Shown here: positions 14,951 to 22,435 of the stretch, piece by piece
Position numbering within the stretch: position 1 is the stretch's first letter
Layout of the letters: each line of letters begins with the position of its first letter
Source of the DNA: Peribacillus frigoritolerans
GTDB lineage: Bacteria; Bacillota; Bacilli; Bacillales; DSM-1321
NCBI RefSeq assembly: GCF_040250305.1
Contig: NZ_CP158190.1
Location: forward strand, 5,054,001 to 5,118,000
Direction of reading: 5' to 3'
DNA: 64,000 nucleotides
The notes under the pieces: generated by a model
What the model saw: only the letters and a program-made list of their open reading frames with translations
Told to the model about the DNA's origin: nothing
Databases searched by the model: none
Program-made: the position numbers and the translations under genes

Positions 14951-15272
14951 AATCCTATCGGCCCTATTCCTTTTAATGGGAGTCTTTCTCTTTTTAGTCT
15001 CGGCTTTCGGCATCATCCGGCTACCCGACGTCTATACAAGAAATCACGCTGCCTCAAAAAGCTCGACACTTGGAATCATGTTCATCCTGATCGGCACCTT
15101 GTTATATTTTTATTATAAACATAGCCATTTCGATTTCCGGGTCGTGCTTGCGATCATCTTTATCTTCATGACCAGCCCTGTTGCCGGACATTTAATCATG
15201 CGCTCGGCTTATCATACTGGCGTAAAAATGTGGGATCGGAGTGTCCAGGATGATTTAAAGAAAACCCGGTGA
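14934..15272 (+). CDS. mrpG: Na+/H+ antiporter subunit MrpG
   Basis: A 112-aa three-helix protein ending the mrp operon. The family signature is FGIIRLPDVYTRNHAASKSSTLG, followed by two helices and MTSPVAGHLIMRSAYHTG. The full set A to G in uninterrupted order means a complete Mrp antiporter, which in Bacillus exports Na+ (and bile salts) and supports alkaline pH homeostasis. A terminator follows 14 bases downstream. Confidence 0.94.
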   Translation: MTAIVEILSALFLLMGVFLFLVSAFGIIRLPDVYTRNHAASKSSTLGIMFILIGTLLYFYYKHSHFDFRVVLAIIFIFMTSPVAGHLIMRSAYHTGVKMWDRSVQDDLKKTR

Positions 15273-15283
15273 TTCCTGCCATT

Positions 15284-15322
15284 GCAAAAGAGCTGCCCTG
15301 ATTACAGGAGCAGCTCTTTTCT
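15284..15322. terminator. Terminator of the mrp operon (bidirectional)
   Basis: AAAAGAGCTGC and GCAGCTCTTTT pair, with an inner CCTG-ATTA-CAGG stem extending the hairpin. T-tracts face the mrp operon on one side and the MOSC gene on the other. Confidence 0.9.
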
Positions 15323-15325
15323 GTC

Positions 15326-16045
15326 TCAATCCTTTAAAAATACCTCATCGCCCACTCTGATTTCACCTGTTTGCACGACCGAGGCATATACGCCAAAATG
15401 ATTTTTCCTTTCCTTGACGACAGTTTTCAGGAGTGATGGATCTCTATGTGAATCGCTTGGATCGACAGTTATGATCATACAGCGTTCACAATGCCTTTTG
15501 ATCTCCAATTCCACTTCATTTCCGATTAGAATCCTTTTTCCGAACCATTTCTCTTCTAAAAAGGGCGTTTTGTTCACTAAAGATAGCACTAAATTTTGCC
15601 TGAATCTCCTGCCATCCAGTTCTTTTCCCCAAAGTTTTGTCAATTCGCCAATCGAGGCATCACTGACAAGCAGGATGTTTTCTTCTTCAATCGCTCCTAA
15701 CGGAATATGTGCAGGGTGATAAACAACGGGTGCTGCCTCCTGTTTTAACAATCGTTCCATTTCTTCCTGAAAGGCTTCCTCTCCCCATGTCAGCACGTTT
15801 CCTGAAGGAGTCTTCACTTTGATTTCCGGATATTGGCCAAGGGTTTCCTCACCAGAAAAAACAGCTTGATAACAGACCATCTCCGGGACTTGGGTTATCG
15901 TCAGGAACTTCCCATTTTTATCTTTAAAAGCATGACTGCGATCTCCATATAGTCCATAGTCCATCACCTTCGTTTTCTGTACCTGTTCACCAGTGAATGA
16001 TTTTACAGGATGACGGGTGATTTCTTGTATATGACCCACCAGCAT
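15326..16045 (-). CDS. MOSC domain protein (YcbX/mARC-like)
   Basis: A 239-aa cytoplasmic protein. The N-terminal beta-barrel starts VGHIQEITRHPVKSFTGEQV with GLYGDRSHAF. The C-terminal MOSC domain has RRFRQNLVL and IKRHCERCMIITVDPSDSHRDP, whose Cys residues fit the molybdenum-cofactor-sulfur ligand position of the YcbX/mARC group. These proteins reduce N-hydroxylated compounds or handle sulfur on Moco, but the specific substrate is unknown. ATG at 16045 has GAGG about 7 bases upstream; 12 in-frame upstream codons are discarded. Confidence 0.85.
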   Translation of the reverse strand: MLVGHIQEITRHPVKSFTGEQVQKTKVMDYGLYGDRSHAFKDKNGKFLTITQVPEMVCYQAVFSGEETLGQYPEIKVKTPSGNVLTWGEEAFQEEMERLLKQEAAPVVYHPAHIPLGAIEEENILLVSDASIGELTKLWGKELDGRRFRQNLVLSLVNKTPFLEEKWFGKRILIGNEVELEIKRHCERCMIITVDPSDSHRDPSLLKTVVKERKNHFGVYASVVQTGEIRVGDEVFLKD

Positions 16046-16140
16046 AAAAAAACCTCTTTTCATACAATAGTCTACTGCCATATTATACTTAAACCGGATA
16101 CTGTAGAATCATTGCGTCAATTTGCGATTGTTCTTTTGAT

Positions 16141-16539
16141 TCACTTTGACTTCGGTAAGTCGATAACGGCCAATGTACAGCGTGAAATGCAGATAAGATG
16201 ATCCTCTTCATCACGTATCTTCACGTCCCACACCATCGTCGTCTTCCCGCGATGGATGATGTTCCCTTCTGCGGTAACAAAACCTGAACGGACGCCCCTA
16301 ACATGATTGGCATTGATTTCAAGGCCGACGACAGCTTGTTTTGTACTATCTACCAGCTGCATCCCGCCAAAGCTTGCAACGGATTCCGCAAGGGCAACGG
16401 ATGCTCCCCCATGCAATAAACCATACGGCTGCCTAGTCCGTTCATCCACTGGCATCGTCGCAATGACTTTCCCCTCGCCGACTTCTTTCATTTCAATCCC
16501 AAGCGTGCCTATCAATGACTGTTCAATATTTCTCTCCAT
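16141..16539 (-). CDS. yuxO: Hotdog-fold thioesterase (YuxO/MenI-like)
   Basis: A 132-aa PaaI/YdiI-type thioesterase. The active-site region is RTRQPYGLLHGGASVALAESVASFGG, with the conserved HGG and catalytic Glu, followed by VGLEINANHVRGVRSGFV. The family hydrolyses acyl-CoAs; relatives act on 1,4-dihydroxy-2-naphthoyl-CoA in menaquinone synthesis. In B. subtilis yuxO lies between comA and the mrp operon; here it keeps the mrp neighbour but comQXPA is not seen. GGGGGT lies before the ATG. Confidence 0.88.
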   Translation of the reverse strand: MERNIEQSLIGTLGIEMKEVGEGKVIATMPVDERTRQPYGLLHGGASVALAESVASFGGMQLVDSTKQAVVGLEINANHVRGVRSGFVTAEGNIIHRGKTTMVWDVKIRDEEDHLICISRCTLAVIDLPKSK

Positions 16540-16602
16540 CCCATTACCCCCGACTCTCTTGTTTTTTTACCAAAAAAATGAACCACTATTCATATTAGTA
16601 TA

Positions 16603-16637
16603 CAAAAAAAGGATGACCCAAGTCTATCAAGTCATCC
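16603..16637 (-). terminator. Terminator of the rib-like four-gene operon
   Basis: On the minus strand GGATGAC-(13-nt loop)-GTCATCC is followed by seven T residues, 18 bases after the nucleotidase stop. It separates that operon from yuxO. Confidence 0.85.
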
Positions 16638-16655
16638 GTCAATAATGTAAATGTA

Positions 16656-17219
16656 TTATTTGGAGAGGATTTCTTTTAATTCAAACCAGCTTGTCAGTCT
16701 TGGAATATCCAATTCCCTGTTATAGGAGTTATCCATTGCATACACTTTCGTTGGAATATCCAATAAAGTTTCCAGCACTGCCGGTTTATCATCAAAATAA
16801 TAATCCAATCCCAATTTGCGGATCGTATCAATTTTTTCATGATCCTTCATCCCGCAGTAAAAATGGTCTTCCTTAACCGGAAAGCCATTTTCAATCAGCC
16901 ATTTTTTCGTCCGGTCACCATGCTCCGCTTTTCTGGCTGTGATGTAATAGATTTCGTGACCATCGCGCTCAAGCTCCTGCAGCGTTTCCACTGCGCCCTC
17001 GAAGGCTGGACAGGATGAATAATACACTTCATCGGCAAGGCTGTTCCACATTTTGCCCCCAGCCTCTTTATCAAGCCCGAAAGCTTCATGGATCTCCAAC
17101 GTCTTTAAAGCTCTGAATTTCGTTAACTCTATATTCGTCTTAAGCTTTTCATTATAAAGATGGAACGCGAACTCCCTCAAGTTAATAAGGGTATCGTCAA
17201 TATCGAAACCGAATTTCAT
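16656..17219 (-). CDS. HAD-family 5'(3')-nucleotidase-like phosphatase (YqfW type)
   Basis: A 187-aa haloacid-dehalogenase phosphatase of the NT5C/YqfW group. Motif I is FDIDDTLIN with D6 and D8, motif II is IYYITARKAEH, a Lys follows in the HEKIDTIRKL region, and motif IV is YYFDDKPAVL. All catalytic residues are present, so it should remove phosphate from a small phosphorylated metabolite or nucleotide. It is the last gene of a four-gene unit, 16 bases after the monooxygenase. A natural inference is that it dephosphorylates the RibD product, a step done in B. subtilis by other HAD enzymes. Confidence 0.85.
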   Translation of the reverse strand: MKFGFDIDDTLINLREFAFHLYNEKLKTNIELTKFRALKTLEIHEAFGLDKEAGGKMWNSLADEVYYSSCPAFEGAVETLQELERDGHEIYYITARKAEHGDRTKKWLIENGFPVKEDHFYCGMKDHEKIDTIRKLGLDYYFDDKPAVLETLLDIPTKVYAMDNSYNRELDIPRLTSWFELKEILSK

Positions 17220-17235
17220 ACTCCTTCACTCCTAT

Positions 17236-18333
17236 TCAAACATAAGCTGCGGCAAACTGTGATGCGAAGGACATTTCCTTGTCCTCCTGAATGGCCTGCA
17301 ATCTTTCAATCTCGGCTTTTCTTTTTGGCTCAGCCATTTTAAGTCCAAGGAAGCCAGTATCCTCCTGCAGGATGCCCCCAGAAATAAGCTCGGCCAATAT
17401 ATCGGCATCCTTCATGGCACAATTGAGTCCGAACGCACCTGTAGGTGTCATCGTATGGGCTGCATCACCTAATAAAGCAACGCCATCCTTTGTCCACGTT
17501 TCACAATAGCTGCTGTAAACATCCAATAAAATGAAGTCCTGCCAAGAGCGGATCTTTTCATACACAACCTTTTTTAATTCTGGAAAGGCAAAAAGCAAAT
17601 CTTCTATGAACGGTTCAAAATGCTGTTTTCGCAAATGGGGAAATGAACCATGATCTATATTCCAGCCAATTTGGATGTAACCTCCAGCCTGGGTAAAGAG
17701 GGCAACCTGGGAGCCATTGACCAATGCCATTTTGATCGAAGGCTTCCATCCCTCCGGAGCAGGAATTTTTGCCCATAGTAAATCATAGCCATGATTTTTA
17801 ATCACGACTGGAATTCCCGCTTTTTTTCGAACGATGGAAAATCTGCCGTCCGCTCCGATTATCAATGAACTTTGCACTTCCAGGTCATTTCCGCCATTTC
17901 GAGCCTTGACTCCCGTAAAACGACCCATTTCATCCTGTATCAAGCCGGTAACCCTCGTATTCATCATCAATTGAAAAGAGTCCAGCTTTTCAGCTTCATT
18001 CAATATAGCTGTAAGCAGATGATTTTGAGGGACATGTATCCCAACATGATCGACCGGCCATTCAGGGAAAATCCTTTTGAATATTTGGCCTTCATGCCAA
18101 TATTCAATTTGTTCCATCCTTAGCAAGCCAAGTCTTTCCACACTCTTGAATAAACCGTGCTTTTTAAGAATGCCCTCTCCTTCATCGTTCAAGAACTCGC
18201 CCCTGAACTCCCTTGAAACCTCAGAATGCCTTTCAAGCAAAACGACTGAAATGTCCTGCTTGGCCAATAGGTAAGCCAGCAGGGCTCCTCCAGGACCTGA
18301 TCCGACTATGCATACATCTGATTTAACCAACAT
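17236..18333 (-). CDS. FAD-dependent monooxygenase (PHBH/UbiH fold)
   Basis: A 365-aa group A flavoprotein monooxygenase. FAD is bound by VCIVGSGPGGALLAYLLA with Glu at the end of strand 2 (VLLER). The DG motif appears as IIGADGRFSIVRKKAG and the GD motif as ALLGDAAHTMTPTGAFGLN. Such enzymes hydroxylate or epoxidise aromatic or isoprenoid substrates using NAD(P)H and oxygen. There is no membrane segment. It sits 24 bases after ribD in the same transcript, so its substrate could be a pyrimidine- or flavin-related metabolite; that is inference. Family assignment is firm, substrate unknown. Confidence 0.88.
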   Translation of the reverse strand: MLVKSDVCIVGSGPGGALLAYLLAKQDISVVLLERHSEVSREFRGEFLNDEGEGILKKHGLFKSVERLGLLRMEQIEYWHEGQIFKRIFPEWPVDHVGIHVPQNHLLTAILNEAEKLDSFQLMMNTRVTGLIQDEMGRFTGVKARNGGNDLEVQSSLIIGADGRFSIVRKKAGIPVVIKNHGYDLLWAKIPAPEGWKPSIKMALVNGSQVALFTQAGGYIQIGWNIDHGSFPHLRKQHFEPFIEDLLFAFPELKKVVYEKIRSWQDFILLDVYSSYCETWTKDGVALLGDAAHTMTPTGAFGLNCAMKDADILAELISGGILQEDTGFLGLKMAEPKRKAEIERLQAIQEDKEMSFASQFAAAYV

Positions 18334-18357
18334 GCCTCTTCACCTGTTGTCTATTTT

Positions 18358-19452
18358 TTATTTAGGATAAGCCGTGATGCGTATGTCCTCACCAAACGTT
18401 TCCACGCCAGAGAAGGAAACATCCATCGCTTCATCCATCGTATCCACATTCACTCCAGTAAACGGTGTTAGTGAGTTTCTTCCGCCCAATAGTTTAGGGG
18501 CTATATAAATCAAGTATTTATCGATGAGCCCTTCCCTAAGGAATGAGGCATTCACTTCGCTTCCGCCTTCCAGCAAGACATCCGTAATCCCCTTTTTATA
18601 CAGCTCTTCCATTAATGCCTTAAGATTCAGTCCCGTCTCGTTTTTGGGGACGAAAATGAATTCGATCCCTTTTTCACGTAAAAGGTCCATTTTATCCGCA
18701 GGTGCATTTTGCTGCGTTACGATCAAGGTTTTCGCATCTGATACCTGTACAACATTGGCATCCAATGGAACCCGTAATTCACTGTCTAAAATGATCCTGA
18801 TCGGATTTTTCCCTCCGCCCTCCGGAAGTCTGGTCGTCAGTGATGGATCATCGGCCAACACAGTCCCGATACCAACGAGAATGGCATCCACCTCATCACG
18901 AAGCAAATGAACGGAATAACGTGATTCTTCTCCTGTTATCCACTTTGAATGGCCTGTGTGGGTTGCAAGTTTTCCATCGAGCGTCATCGCATACTTCGAT
19001 ATGACAAATGGACGATTCGTCAGCATATTGTGAATGAAACGCTCATTCAGCCTTTGAGCTTCCTTTTCCAGGACGCCGACTTCCACTTCAATGCCTGCAT
19101 CCTTTATGATCGATATCCCCCTGCCGGCTACTTCCGGATTCGGATCTTGAGTCGCAACCACCACTCGCCGGACACCTGATTCTTTCACCAAATTTGCACA
19201 AGGAGGTGTCTTTCCATAATGGGAACAAGGCTCAAGAGTCACATATAGCGTTGCACCTTCTGCATACTCACCCGCCATTTTGAAAGCATGCACTTCCGCA
19301 TGCGGTTCACCCGCTTTTCGGTGGATCCCTGTCCCGGCTATCACACCGTCTTTGACTATGACGGCTCCGACCACTGGATTTGGATTCGTCTTTCCTTTTG
19401 CACTGGCTGCCAAATCCAGTGCAAGCTTCATGTAATATTGATCATCATTCAT
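18358..19452 (-). CDS. ribD: Bifunctional riboflavin-pathway deaminase/reductase RibD
   Basis: A 364-aa two-domain enzyme. The N-terminal deaminase has zinc ligands in HAEVHAF (H51, catalytic E53) and EPCSHYGKTPPC (C76, C85). The C-terminal reductase starts at about residue 147 with PFVISKYAMTLDGKLAT and includes GIGTVLADDPSLTTR and the VLLEGGSEVNASFL loop. In the normal pathway it deaminates and reduces the GTP cyclohydrolase II product to 5-amino-6-ribitylaminouracil phosphate. Both domains look intact. AAGGAG lies 9 bases before the ATG at 19452. It follows the cyclohydrolase by 13 bases. No ribE or ribH lies here, so this unit alone cannot make riboflavin. Confidence 0.93.
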   Translation of the reverse strand: MNDDQYYMKLALDLAASAKGKTNPNPVVGAVIVKDGVIAGTGIHRKAGEPHAEVHAFKMAGEYAEGATLYVTLEPCSHYGKTPPCANLVKESGVRRVVVATQDPNPEVAGRGISIIKDAGIEVEVGVLEKEAQRLNERFIHNMLTNRPFVISKYAMTLDGKLATHTGHSKWITGEESRYSVHLLRDEVDAILVGIGTVLADDPSLTTRLPEGGGKNPIRIILDSELRVPLDANVVQVSDAKTLIVTQQNAPADKMDLLREKGIEFIFVPKNETGLNLKALMEELYKKGITDVLLEGGSEVNASFLREGLIDKYLIYIAPKLLGGRNSLTPFTGVNVDTMDEAMDVSFSGVETFGEDIRITAYPK

Positions 19453-19465
19453 ACTATAGCTCTCC

Positions 19466-20215
19466 TTATACAATCAAAGTTGGCTTCTTTTCGGGAATAT
19501 GTCCAGACTTCTTAACCTTTGTATCGAGATAGAAACTATTATCTTCCGTCAAACCGCCCCAAAGCGGAATATGGTCCTTCGCCGCAAGTCCATTCTTCGT
19601 GAGGGCGTCCAGCTTTTTGGGGTTGTTCGTGATTAAAGTCACCGGATCCTCGCGCAGTTCCCTCAACACGCGGATGGCTCCCTCGTAAGATCGCGTATCG
19701 TCTTCGAATCCTAAAGCCTCATTCGCCTCGACCGTGTCATAACCTTCCTGCTGAAGCAAATAGGCAAGAGATTTGGAAAACAGGCCGATCCCTCTTCCTT
19801 CATGGTCCGCAAGGTAAAAAATGGCCCCGCACCCATGCTCGGCTATCATCTTCATCGATTGGTGGAGCTGGTAGCCGCAATCACAGCGTTTACTGCCGAA
19901 GATATCACCTGTGTGACAGATGCTATGCATCCGGACAAGTGCATCCTCCGACTTTTTAAAGTCACCATACACCAATACGGAGGATTGCTGTCCAAAAGCG
20001 AGGTTGGCTTCCGAAAGCGAATCAAGCACCGCTTCCTTGTCATTATCCGCGCCGTCAAGCTGTAGCCATGTATACCATTGGAAAACCGTTGAGAAATCTC
20101 CTTGCTCAACAGGCAGGTTCACAGGCCCTACAAGGCATATATCAGCTTTTCCCGGTGTTTTTATGATATTCATTTTATCTATTAAAAGTTTTTTTGTTTC
20201 CTCGGTTATTTTCAT
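19466..20215 (-). CDS. ribA: Standalone GTP cyclohydrolase II (RibA) paralogue
   Basis: A 249-aa GTP cyclohydrolase II without the DHBP synthase domain that Bacillus RibBA normally carries. Zinc ligands C100, C111 and C113 are in RMHSICHTGDIFGSKRCDCG, catalytic Y134 is present, and D173/R175 occur in EDDTRSY, with TNNPKKLDAL near the end. The loop after Y134 reads YLADHEGRGIGL, where the usual family sequence is YLRQEGRGIGL, so RQ is replaced by ADH with one extra residue. The N-terminal 90 residues are also unusual. It would open the GTP imidazole ring to start a pyrimidine pathway. AGGTGAT precedes the ATG. First gene of the operon. Confidence 0.88.
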   Translation of the reverse strand: MKITEETKKLLIDKMNIIKTPGKADICLVGPVNLPVEQGDFSTVFQWYTWLQLDGADNDKEAVLDSLSEANLAFGQQSSVLVYGDFKKSEDALVRMHSICHTGDIFGSKRCDCGYQLHQSMKMIAEHGCGAIFYLADHEGRGIGLFSKSLAYLLQQEGYDTVEANEALGFEDDTRSYEGAIRVLRELREDPVTLITNNPKKLDALTKNGLAAKDHIPLWGGLTEDNSFYLDTKVKKSGHIPEKKPTLIV

Positions 20216-20256
20216 GTTAACATCACCTATTTTATAATTTATAGTGTGCCTTCTCC

Positions 20257-20273
20257 TTACTTTAGGTAAGTAA
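20257..20273. promoter_or_regulatory. Palindromic operator candidate (TACT-N7-AGTA)
   Basis: TTACTTACCTAAAGTAA (read on the minus strand) has perfect TTACTT/AAGTAA arms and abuts the -10 element of the ribA promoter at its downstream edge. It fits the TACT-N7-AGTA pattern known for DUF24/HxlR-type MarR repressors such as YodB and CatR in B. subtilis. Identity of the regulator is inferred; no such gene is in the window. Confidence 0.5.
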
Positions 20274-20301
20274 GTATATTACTATACACTATACCTGTCA
20301 A
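20273..20301 (-). promoter_or_regulatory. Sigma-A promoter of the rib-like operon
   Basis: TTGACA (20296-20301, minus strand) and TATACT (20273-20278) are separated by exactly 17 bases, a near-perfect housekeeping promoter about 58 bases upstream of the ribA start. No FMN riboswitch lies between it and the start codon. Confidence 0.8.
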
Positions 20302-20470
20302 TGAAGCAGTTTACAAATAATAGTGTGTCTTTGATCATAATTTTCAAGAAGTTTTTTTGCAGAAGAAAGGTCATTCCCAAACCGCTATCATATCGGCTGG
20401 CCTTTATACATATTTTAACGTATAACGAATACGTGTCTATAGACAGACTTAAGGAAAGGAAGGAAACCTT

Positions 20471-20866
20471 TTGGAGGATTTCCCTTATTTTTTATATGAT
20501 CCTATCCTGTTTCCGCCTCACGCGAGAGCAATGAATATGAATCGGGAATGGGAAGGAACGTTGCGTCCCTACTCGGCAACCAATCCGGATCTGCTAGTTA
20601 AATCGGCAAAGACCTCGCAATCCTTAATGGTTGATGTAAAAAAAGTCATGGATACTTTAGCCACATCCAAGCCCTTCTCGAACCGGTTGATGACTGCTGC
20701 CCAAGCATCGCAAAAAAATGTCGTGATCGATATGATCAAAAAGATAGGAATTAAGAACGAACCTGATATCACGTATAACCCCGATGGGATCCGTTTTGAT
20801 TTCTATCCTAAAGCAGGGGAAGAAAATTGTCATATCATCGTCAGCTTGAAATGGAGGGATGCATAA
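20471..20866 (+). CDS. Conserved hypothetical protein, unknown function
   Basis: A 131-aa soluble protein that I do not recognise as a named family. The N-terminus (MEDFPYFLYDPILFPPHARA) is Pro/aromatic-rich. The middle is helical (KSAKTSQSLMVDVKKVMDTLA) and the C-terminus is a beta-rich stretch ending YNPDGIRFDFYP and CHIIVSLKWRDA. No membrane segments or catalytic motif are seen. The start is TTG at 20471, supported by GGAAGG about 8 bases upstream. It is divergent from ribA and separated from pepA by a shared terminator. Confidence 0.7.
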   Translation: MEDFPYFLYDPILFPPHARAMNMNREWEGTLRPYSATNPDLLVKSAKTSQSLMVDVKKVMDTLATSKPFSNRLMTAAQASQKNVVIDMIKKIGIKNEPDITYNPDGIRFDFYPKAGEENCHIIVSLKWRDA

Positions 20867-20887
20867 CGTCCGTCCAACACCTATTTG

Positions 20888-20919
20888 GTAAAAAAACCGA
20901 AGCCTATTTTCGGCTTCGG
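20888..20919. terminator. Terminator of pepA (bidirectional)
   Basis: CCGAAGCC (20897-20904) pairs with GGCTTCGG (20912-20919). On the minus strand it is followed by a T-tract, so it mainly serves pepA. Confidence 0.85.
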
Positions 20920-20929
20920 ATATTTGGGT

Positions 20930-22435
20930 TCATCTTGTTTTCGTTTCAAAGGTTTCAACCAATAGTGCAAGCGTGCGTGCCATGACACCGGTAGCCCCCG
21001 CCGTGCACAATTCGGAGTTGTTCGAGGTTGTGGAAGTTCCGGCAATATCCAGATGGACCCACGGAGTGTCTTCGGCAAATTCACCGATGAAGGCGCCGCC
21101 CATGATCGCATGTCCCGCCCCTCCAGGTGAATTATTCAAATCCGCTATTTTACTGTTGCGTACCCGCTCTTTATCCTTTTCTGTAATCGGCAATCTCCAA
21201 ATGGGCTCCCCGGCCTCCTCTGAGGCTTTGACCACTTGTTCATAGAATTCCGTGTCATTTGTCATTGCACCCGTCATATCCATGCCCAGCGCGGTTATGA
21301 CACCACCCGTTAAAGTGGCAACGTCAATAAGATAGTCTGCACCATGATGTTTAGCGTATGTCATGGCATCTGCCAAAACCAGCCGGCCTTCCGCATCCGT
21401 ATTCAATACCTCTATCGTCTTGCCGCTCATGGCAGTGATCACATCATCCGGCTTGAATGCATCACCGCTGATCATATTATCAGTGGAAGGAATGACCGCC
21501 ACGACATTTTGGTCCGGTCCTAATTCGCCGATTATTTCCATTGCTCCTAAAACAGCTGCCGCACCGCCCATATCCGTCTTCATTCCAACGATTCCGGCCT
21601 TCGTTTTCAATGAGTATCCACCCGTATCGAATGTGATGCCTTTACCTACCAACCCGATAACATCCTTCCATTCATCCTTACCTTGATACTTCAGGACGAT
21701 CATTTTCGGAGGCTCGACCGAACCTTGATTGACGGCAAGGAGTGCACCCATTCCCAACTTAAGCATATCCTCCTTCTCAAGGATCTCCACTTCAAAACCA
21801 TAACGTTCACCCAAGGCAGATGAATAATCCGCCAAATCCGTGGAAGTCAACAAATTGCCTGGTGTATTGACCAATGTTCTCGCGGAGTTCGTCGCCCTTC
21901 CGAAGATCCTCCCTACATGAAGCGCGGCACCGACCTCTTCTTGATCAAATTCACTGTAAACCGTAATCGATTCAAGGCTTTTTTCGACCTGGTTCGATTT
22001 TTGCTTGTATCCGCCAAATTTATAGGAAGCAAGTTCAAAAGCCTCGGAACAAGCATGCGCTGCGTCCAATGCATCCAGATTTTCAGTCGTGAATGTATCC
22101 AACGCGATTGAAAGTGTCGTAATCTTGGATTCTTTTATCGTCTTACGAGCTTTTCCCAATGCTTCGCGGAGCGTTTCAAAGGATAGCTCCTTTTCCTTGC
22201 CCAACCCTACAAAAATCAATCTCTTTATGCCTAATTTACCTAATGTATGTATTTTGACCACTGATTTTTTCCTGGAAGAGATTTCTCCCTCCTTCACTAA
22301 CTCTGTTAGCTGGCCGTCCAATCGTTCATCCGCTTCTTTTCCTATGCCTGAGAATTTTACAGGTTTGTCAAATACGCCTAGAATCAGGCATTCGTCAATC
22401 AAATCTATATTCAAGGAATCTTTTACTGTGAACAT
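20930..22435 (-). CDS. pepA: Leucyl aminopeptidase (M17)
   Basis: A 501-aa cytosolic dizinc aminopeptidase. The catalytic C-terminal domain carries [17 protein letters not shown] (metal Lys and Asp), [16 protein letters not shown], and [14 protein letters not shown] with the metal Asp/Glu and catalytic Arg. The N-terminal Macro-like domain occupies about the first 170 residues. It removes N-terminal residues, preferring leucine. Length is standard. It corresponds to yuiE of B. subtilis, consistent with yuiD, yuiC and yuiB following. It is monocistronic. Confidence 0.94.

Follow-up and report, generated by a model that had tools for sequence, protein, structure and literature searches.

Split riboflavin biosynthesis in Peribacillus: a GTP cyclohydrolase II-RibD-monooxygenase-HAD unit with a conserved operator-like palindrome

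Four tightly packed genes of Peribacillus frigoritolerans (GCF_040250305.1, contig NZ_CP158190.1) raise the question of why GTP cyclohydrolase II (GCHII) and RibD should share an operon with a flavin adenine dinucleotide (FAD)-dependent monooxygenase and a HAD hydrolase. They lie between positions 16603 and 20301 of the window, the whole 64,000-nucleotide stretch that was analysed (contig positions 5,054,001 to 5,118,000). In the first-pass annotation, the unit was considered to be self-contained and to divert GTP into a 5-A-RU-like pyrimidine; our analysis of the host genome revealed that it instead encodes the first half of a riboflavin pathway that is divided between two loci. The features of the unit, numbered by window position, are as follows.

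20301-20273, minus strand: sigma-A type promoter, TTGACA-N17-TATACT (11 of 12 consensus bases)
20269-20257, minus strand: palindrome TTAC-CTAAA-GTAA spanning the expected start site, proposed operator of DUF24/HxlR type
20215-19466, minus strand: GCHII, 249 aa (PF00925, 156 bits, cut-off 23.3)
19452-18358, minus strand: RibD, 364 aa (TIGR00326, 404 bits, cut-off 156.35; PF01872, 205 bits)
18333-17236, minus strand: class A FAD-dependent monooxygenase, 365 aa (PF01494, 145 bits, cut-off 22)
17219-16656, minus strand: HAD hydrolase of NT5C type, 187 aa (PF06941, 43 bits, cut-off 24.8)
16637-16604, minus strand: intrinsic-terminator-like hairpin and T run (stem 16637-16611, 11 pairs)

Pfam and NCBIfam profiles concurred on all four family identities, in agreement with the earlier gene assignments (RibD was scored against TIGR00326 without its first two residues). 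Only one full-length RibD was detected in the host genome, the window copy, with two more RibD_C matches in open frames that are 196 and 183 aa long; since the searches found one RibD, one 3,4-dihydroxy-2-butanone 4-phosphate (DHBP) synthase and one lumazine synthase, a second full riboflavin set was rejected. Riboflavin synthase, ribB and ribH were located behind a flavin mononucleotide (FMN) riboswitch at 613 kb of the 5.6 Mb contig, about 4.5 Mb from the window unit when measured along the contig and, should the latter be circular, about 1.1 Mb. The DHBP, lumazine and riboflavin synthase genes are missing from the unit, as had been noticed, but are present elsewhere in the genome, where this distant operon completes the pathway, and the description of the unit as self-contained falls. 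A complete ribDEAH operon elsewhere, on which the supposed diversion of GTP depended, was sought, and only the riboflavin synthase-ribB-ribH operon was found. Because the genome contains no other full RibD, riboflavin must draw on the window unit, which is therefore the housekeeping source of 5-amino-6-ribitylaminouracil (5-A-RU) and not a diversion. RF00050 matched the genome twice, at 613193 and 3561102, the second match being followed by an open reading frame (ORF) that we take to be ribU. A second GCHII of the same subfamily (2195206-2195964), 57% identical to the window GCHII, had no RibD inside the 15 kb read.

RibD loci were then read in each of 36 genomes of the genus, the window genome included, and all 36 contained one full RibD. 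The canonical ribD-ribE-ribBA-ribH operon was present in five genomes, all with an FMN riboswitch just upstream of ribD, GCHII-RibD-HAD without the monooxygenase in eight, and GCHII-RibD-monooxygenase-HAD, the order whose conservation the first-pass annotation had proposed to survey, in 23. In genome G008, the monooxygenase was 87% complete and matched in pieces, as did the thioesterase, MOSC, ribE and ribH genes of the same assembly. By coordinates, none of the 31 non-canonical genomes had an FMN riboswitch near RibD, and all 31 had a riboswitch-linked ribE-ribB-ribH elsewhere; in two of them (G009 and G026, loci L133 and L132, respectively), the latter was a ribE-ribBA-ribH operon minus ribD, in which RibB was still fused to a GCHII domain and which is an intermediate stage of the operon split. 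The occurrence of canonical, intermediate, three-gene and four-gene states in one genus suggests a stepwise series in which, in an order that we infer, a GCHII-RibD-HAD unit was added, the old ribD was lost, the GCHII domain was lost and the monooxygenase was gained. All four genes are under purifying selection, with median ratios of nonsynonymous to synonymous substitution (dN/dS) of 0.058 for GCHII, 0.078 for RibD, 0.131 for the monooxygenase and 0.082 for the HAD gene in 20 of the 23 four-gene genomes; decay of the monooxygenase was rejected on this value. It was also noticed that G029 carries an extra unit (L104, 6695-7787) with a GCHII frame cut short and a truncated RibD (114-aa ORF), about 60% identical to the window copies, which looks like a decaying copy. 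Two weak FMN-riboswitch-like matches below the gathering score were seen in the riboswitch survey, which covered the genus (G015:C23:44681-44769, 40.7 bits, and G009:C17:43143-43279, 34 bits).

If the first half of the pathway has left the riboswitch, what controls it? No Rfam match at E<=1 was found across 15000-22000, so that no RF00050 element was detected upstream of the unit, in line with what had been stated before. The remaining architecture claimed for it, namely four minus-strand genes with gaps of 13, 24 and 16 bases, one promoter, a palindrome at the start site and a terminator, was confirmed by ORFs, scans and conservation, the terminator in the form of a terminator-like hairpin. 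The scans by themselves prove little, giving 14 promoter-like sites in the region (shuffles, 9.0 +/- 2.8) and 5 terminator-like sites (shuffles, 4.5 +/- 2.5), among which the hairpin at 16637-16611 was the longest; it is by their conservation that the promoter and palindrome stand above chance. The promoter hexamers and the palindrome were invariant in all 13 aligned core rows (13 of the 23 four-gene genomes), the sequence farther upstream being variable. Outside these rows, G002 and G003 had altered forms, G010, G011 and G023 had the palindrome without the promoter hexamers, and G012 retained a similar promoter with no palindrome.

In its extended form, the palindrome reads CTTAC-CTAAA-GTAAG, of the TTACTTAC-N5-GTAAG type. 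We take DUF24/HxlR redox regulators, the DUF24 protein CatR among them, to have operators of the form TTAC-N5-GTAA, and a site of this form stands at the promoter at 20257-20269. Within 300 bases upstream of GCHII or the monooxygenase, whichever came first, exact TTAC-N5-GTAA was found in 51 of 84 units or lone genes, where first-order resampling gave a mean of 0.95, and in none of 13 canonical operons, for which the region upstream of ribD was used. By class, it was present in 22/22 four-gene units of Peribacillus, 10/10 monooxygenase-first four-gene units, 6/8 three-gene units without monooxygenase in the genus and 1/4 outside it, 4/5 GCHII-RibD pairs, 5/5 lone monooxygenases of genus g47, 2/4 f49 units and the single unit of G039. 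The G008 locus (L098) was kept outside the 84, its monooxygenase being in pieces, and a separate check found the palindrome there, so that 29 of the 31 split genomes have it. In g47, the site occurs both at the unlinked monooxygenase (5/5) and at the GCHII-RibD pair (4/4 read, of 5 genomes), which argues for one regulon. Among neighbouring ORFs, 19 of 546 had the palindrome; 11 of these were an HxlR-type gene, and the other eight (of 535) include VOC and DoxX genes adjoining the monooxygenase. The extra fragment of G029 lacked it (0/1).

In three other genera, at 11 loci in all, the unit is faced by an HxlR-type gene; one product was profiled (PF01638), the 11 cluster together, and all 11 carry an N-terminal CPRFEK that includes a Cys. 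CatR is a MarR/DUF24 regulator that senses catechols (PMC6212828), and HypR, YodB and CatR of the DUF24 family sense HOCl, quinones and diamide through an N-terminal Cys (PMC6943732). The palindrome is most likely the operator of a thiol-based regulator of DUF24/HxlR type answering quinones or other electrophiles. A regulator of another type, a helix-turn-helix-cupin protein, was seen facing the GCHII-monooxygenase unit in L199 (10043-10597, profiled) and L200 (5814-6344).

The GCHII of the unit fell below the TIGR00505 equivalog cut-off (173.5 vs 205.85) and passed the subfamily model NF001591 (191.4 vs 148). In the tree, a very long branch with full support separated 50 unit GCHIIs from 11 domains of RibBA type (the two trees were built without 14 closely similar loci, and the GCHII residue count was made without 10). 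C100, C111, C113, R141 and Y152 were present in 54/54 rows and R175 in 53/54, one row being cut short; we assume that the zinc Cys triad, EGR, Tyr and Arg are the catalytic and zinc residues of the window GCHII. Relative to 11 canonical rows, all 54 have Ile in place of Glu at 99, His in place of Leu/Met at 101 and of Gln at 138, and one additional Ala at 136, and the subfamily has an extended N-terminal part and HSICHTGD and HEGRGIGL signatures, the HEGR form occurring also in the RibBA of structure 4i14, presumably that of Mycobacterium tuberculosis. A GCHII halting at the formylated intermediate was rejected, because the Tyr that is replaced in such enzymes is kept. Simple motif patterns of the zinc deaminase and RibD_C were found in 68/68 RibD rows, canonical rows included, and the best solved-structure match of the window RibD was 2b3z (366 bits). 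HAD motif patterns were present in 50/50 rows. The HAD gene lies downstream of RibD in all three- and four-gene units read, is missing from the five GCHII-RibD pairs read, and in L269, where the two-gene unit has no RibD, lies next to that unit on the other strand; its product is proposed as a candidate 5-A-RU 5'-phosphate phosphatase. From the known reactions of the families, GCHII, RibD and such a phosphatase should yield 5-A-RU, as the first-pass annotation had reasoned.

The monooxygenase was closest to PRK06185 among NCBIfam models, with scores under the cut-offs, and GxGxxG, DG and GD patterns were found in 59 of 65 rows, the window row included, the other six deviating in one or two. 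Its 11 named relatives at 79-96% identity are from Peribacillus and Bacillus species, a plasmid search gave three matches at 32-48% identity, and none of the papers listed in a search for structure 8uiu dealt with its substrate. At E<=1e-60, the monooxygenase was detected in 34 of 397 genomes (10 of 135 genera) of an order sample and 33 of 398 genomes (12 of 146 genera) of a class sample, 20 genera over both. From the former, the locus was read together with several kb of flanking sequence in 31 of the 34 genomes (all but G285, G402 and G421); from the latter, 31 further genomes were taken, 20 with long flanks and 9 with 1.5 kb flanks, G495 and G516 being left out and G748 unclassified. Linkage was counted in 19 of the 20 genera, without g184 (34% identity), and in 12 of these the monooxygenase is linked to the GCHII subfamily of the unit, in five gene orders.

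GCHII-RibD-monooxygenase-HAD: genera g1, g162 and g212
GCHII-RibD-HAD-monooxygenase: genus g3
monooxygenase-GCHII-RibD-HAD: genera g26 and g92
GCHII-monooxygenase: genera g78, g6 and g113
monooxygenase-GCHII: genera g135, g173 and g206

In the other seven genera (g47, g79, g142, g143, g163, g197 and g209), the monooxygenase is unlinked to GCHII. Two-gene units occurred in eight genomes, and ribD-E-BA-H was present besides in all four with a RibD locus read (G411, G164, G044 and G302; no RibD locus of G552 or of a g173 genome was among those read); G411 contains an additional GCHII-RibD-HAD unit. In G039, of another genus, GCHII-RibD-HAD-monooxygenase lies directly upstream of a thiamine pyrophosphate (TPP) riboswitch, followed by tenA, ABC transporter and thi-type genes, named from the ORFs (L122, 5270-14765). 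A thiamine link was considered from this locus and rejected, because the TPP riboswitch separates the unit from tenA and the thi genes.

Genes of quinone- or catechol-stress kinds were found beside the monooxygenase in four of the 19 genera examined. In G411 (L185), a two-domain VOC-superfamily protein is encoded immediately before monooxygenase-GCHII, and the palindrome lies upstream of the VOC gene and not of the two-gene unit; this protein scored far under the cut-offs of the NCBIfam HpaD and catechol 2,3-dioxygenase models, its weak solved-structure matches were mostly glyoxalase I and FosB, and it presumably resembles CatE. In G581 (g209, L270), DoxX and an MhqD-related esterase (65.9 bits vs cut-off 325) precede the monooxygenase, and in G552 (L269) two pirins precede monooxygenase-GCHII. 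In g163, a WrbA-like oxidoreductase, below cut-off, precedes the monooxygenase in four of seven loci and a MarR-type gene faces it in all seven, one of each having been profiled. Dioxygenases, MhqD and quinone reductases are members of quinone-stress regulons (PMC6798810), and these neighbours point towards a role in stress of the quinone or catechol type.

The window unit itself is flanked upstream by PepA, named from sequence, and downstream by a thioesterase and a MOSC protein. The last two, ORFs 15326-16081 and 16141-16539, correspond to a hot-dog thioesterase (MenI-like, below cut-off) and a MOSC-domain protein, and both are divided from the operon by the hairpin. The thioesterase is kept in 23/23 four-gene genomes and the MOSC-domain protein in 21/23.

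The reading that we prefer, at a probability a little below one half (about 0.47), is that the unit supplies flavin under redox control, has an aromatic monooxygenase as its partner and has taken over half of riboflavin synthesis. Judged from their families, GCHII would convert GTP to 2,5-diamino-6-ribosylamino-pyrimidinone phosphate, RibD would deaminate and reduce this product, and the HAD enzyme would strip the phosphate to give 5-A-RU, from which riboflavin would be completed by RibB, RibH and RibE, all encoded in the separate riboswitch operon. Control of the first half would have shifted from the FMN riboswitch to the promoter with the palindrome-covered start site, and the unit may supply basal riboflavin together with extra flavin under redox or electrophile stress, like E. 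coli ribA, which belongs to the SoxRS regulon (PMC6092379). A further precedent for a link of flavin supply to stress comes from C. glutamicum, in which sigH overexpression raises riboflavin genes (PMC4510997). The FAD monooxygenase would be the co-regulated partner, probably hydroxylating an aromatic or quinoid stress compound. By analogy with the E. coli GCHII, for which hydrolysis of 8-oxo-dGTP is described (PMC6092379), a further stress role of this kind is possible.

Several observations weigh against this proposal. The operator consensus is an assumed one, and the 84 rows are not independent, many being from close Peribacillus kin. The palindrome was found in the 300 bases upstream of none of three GCHII-monooxygenase units, none of five monooxygenase-GCHII units and none of the lone monooxygenases of g79 (0/4) and g163 (0/7) or of four further lone monooxygenases (0/4); it was absent as well from three of four three-gene units outside the genus, two of four f49 units, L093, L094 and L217, and from the 300 bases at the second GCHII of the host (0/1). 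No regulator gene lies beside the window unit, and the rest of the host genome was not searched for one. The stress-type neighbours are limited to four of 19 genera, none being seen in the g47, g79, g142, g143 and g197 loci read, and the VOC, esterase and WrbA-like proteins all score below curated equivalog cut-offs. Finally, if cofactor supply were all, it would be odd for the monooxygenase to have its own GCHII gene in genomes that already possess a complete riboflavin operon.

This last point leads to the best-placed alternative, which we consider doubtful, that the substrate of the monooxygenase is a GCHII-pathway pyrimidine, either 5-A-RU or the product of GCHII, which the enzyme would ipso-hydroxylate or N-oxidise at C5 to make a metabolite not yet described or to remove a reactive intermediate, with the unit also feeding riboflavin. 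Linkage of the same GCHII subfamily to the monooxygenase in 12 of 19 genera and five gene orders is in its favour, and it keeps its standing mainly because of the two-gene units, which coexist with ribD-E-BA-H in 4/4 genomes read, of 8. However, eight genomes of the genus have GCHII-RibD-HAD and no monooxygenase at E<=1e-10, no GCHII lies beside the monooxygenase in 7 of 19 genera, the neighbours in four genera are of quinone/catechol-stress kinds, and no tailoring or export genes are clustered with the window unit. We also consider it unlikely that an undescribed pathway, inducible by electrophiles and present across Bacilli, is built around the GCHII subfamily and the monooxygenase and makes an oxidised diaminopyrimidine from GTP, and that in Peribacillus this pathway took in the steps of RibD and the phosphatase to become the sole 5-A-RU route. 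An ordinary housekeeping half-operon, with the monooxygenase as a hitch-hiker whose function is unrelated, is improbable; the single RibD, the existence of three-gene units without the monooxygenase, its lack of linkage in 7/19 genera and its fastest evolution (dN/dS 0.131 vs 0.058-0.082) are what such an operon would show, but chance would hardly produce five gene orders that all involve one GCHII subfamily, or a palindrome common to the unlinked parts in g47. Least probable of all is an intermediate-sensing feedback in which the regulator replaces the FMN riboswitch by sensing electrophilic oxidation products of diaminopyrimidines and the monooxygenase removes excess intermediate, since, for all that this half lacks an FMN riboswitch in 31/31 split genomes, carries the palindrome in 29/31 and has relatives faced by an electrophile-type regulator family, nothing supports such products as ligands and eight split genomes have no monooxygenase.

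Compared with the ribD-E-BA-H operon of B. subtilis type, which stands behind a riboswitch in 5 of the 36 genus genomes, the window unit has the same RibD family and reactions, but it is a split-off first half, with GCHII unfused to RibB, no riboswitch, a palindrome at the start site, and the HAD and monooxygenase genes added. It shares with E. coli ribA a stand-alone GCHII gene and, as proposed, redox control; the regulator family is different, and RibD, HAD and monooxygenase genes join the window GCHII. With the DUF24/HxlR and MhqR quinone-stress regulons (catDE, mhqED and azoR), it shares a site of the TTAC-N5-GTAA type, HxlR-type genes with an N-terminal Cys by related units and similar neighbours in four genera, whereas riboflavin genes are not named among the regulon members in the portions of the sources available. 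GCHII and RibD homologues also occur together in the toxoflavin and pseudoiodinine clusters. The window unit has no extra cluster genes of that kind, its neighbours being PepA, the thioesterase and the MOSC protein, and its RibD is the housekeeping copy, whereas the pseudoiodinine cluster includes additional genes, for example one for a WD-40 protein and one for a sulphatase-modifying-factor-like protein, and the word monooxygenase is absent from the main text on that cluster (PMC9911603). Among the matches listed from the open-licence literature, nothing was found on the GCHII-monooxygenase linkage, its HxlR-type control or the riboflavin genes of Peribacillus.

Within one genus, these genomes show the dismantling and rewiring of an essential vitamin operon, from the canonical riboswitch operon through to the added monooxygenase. 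If the operator works as proposed, one half of the pathway would answer redox stress and the other half FMN, a split control that we did not find described in the portions of the literature available. The analysis also singles out a monooxygenase, scattered over Bacilli, that can be tested for a connection with flavin supply, quinone stress or a new pathway of pyrimidines.

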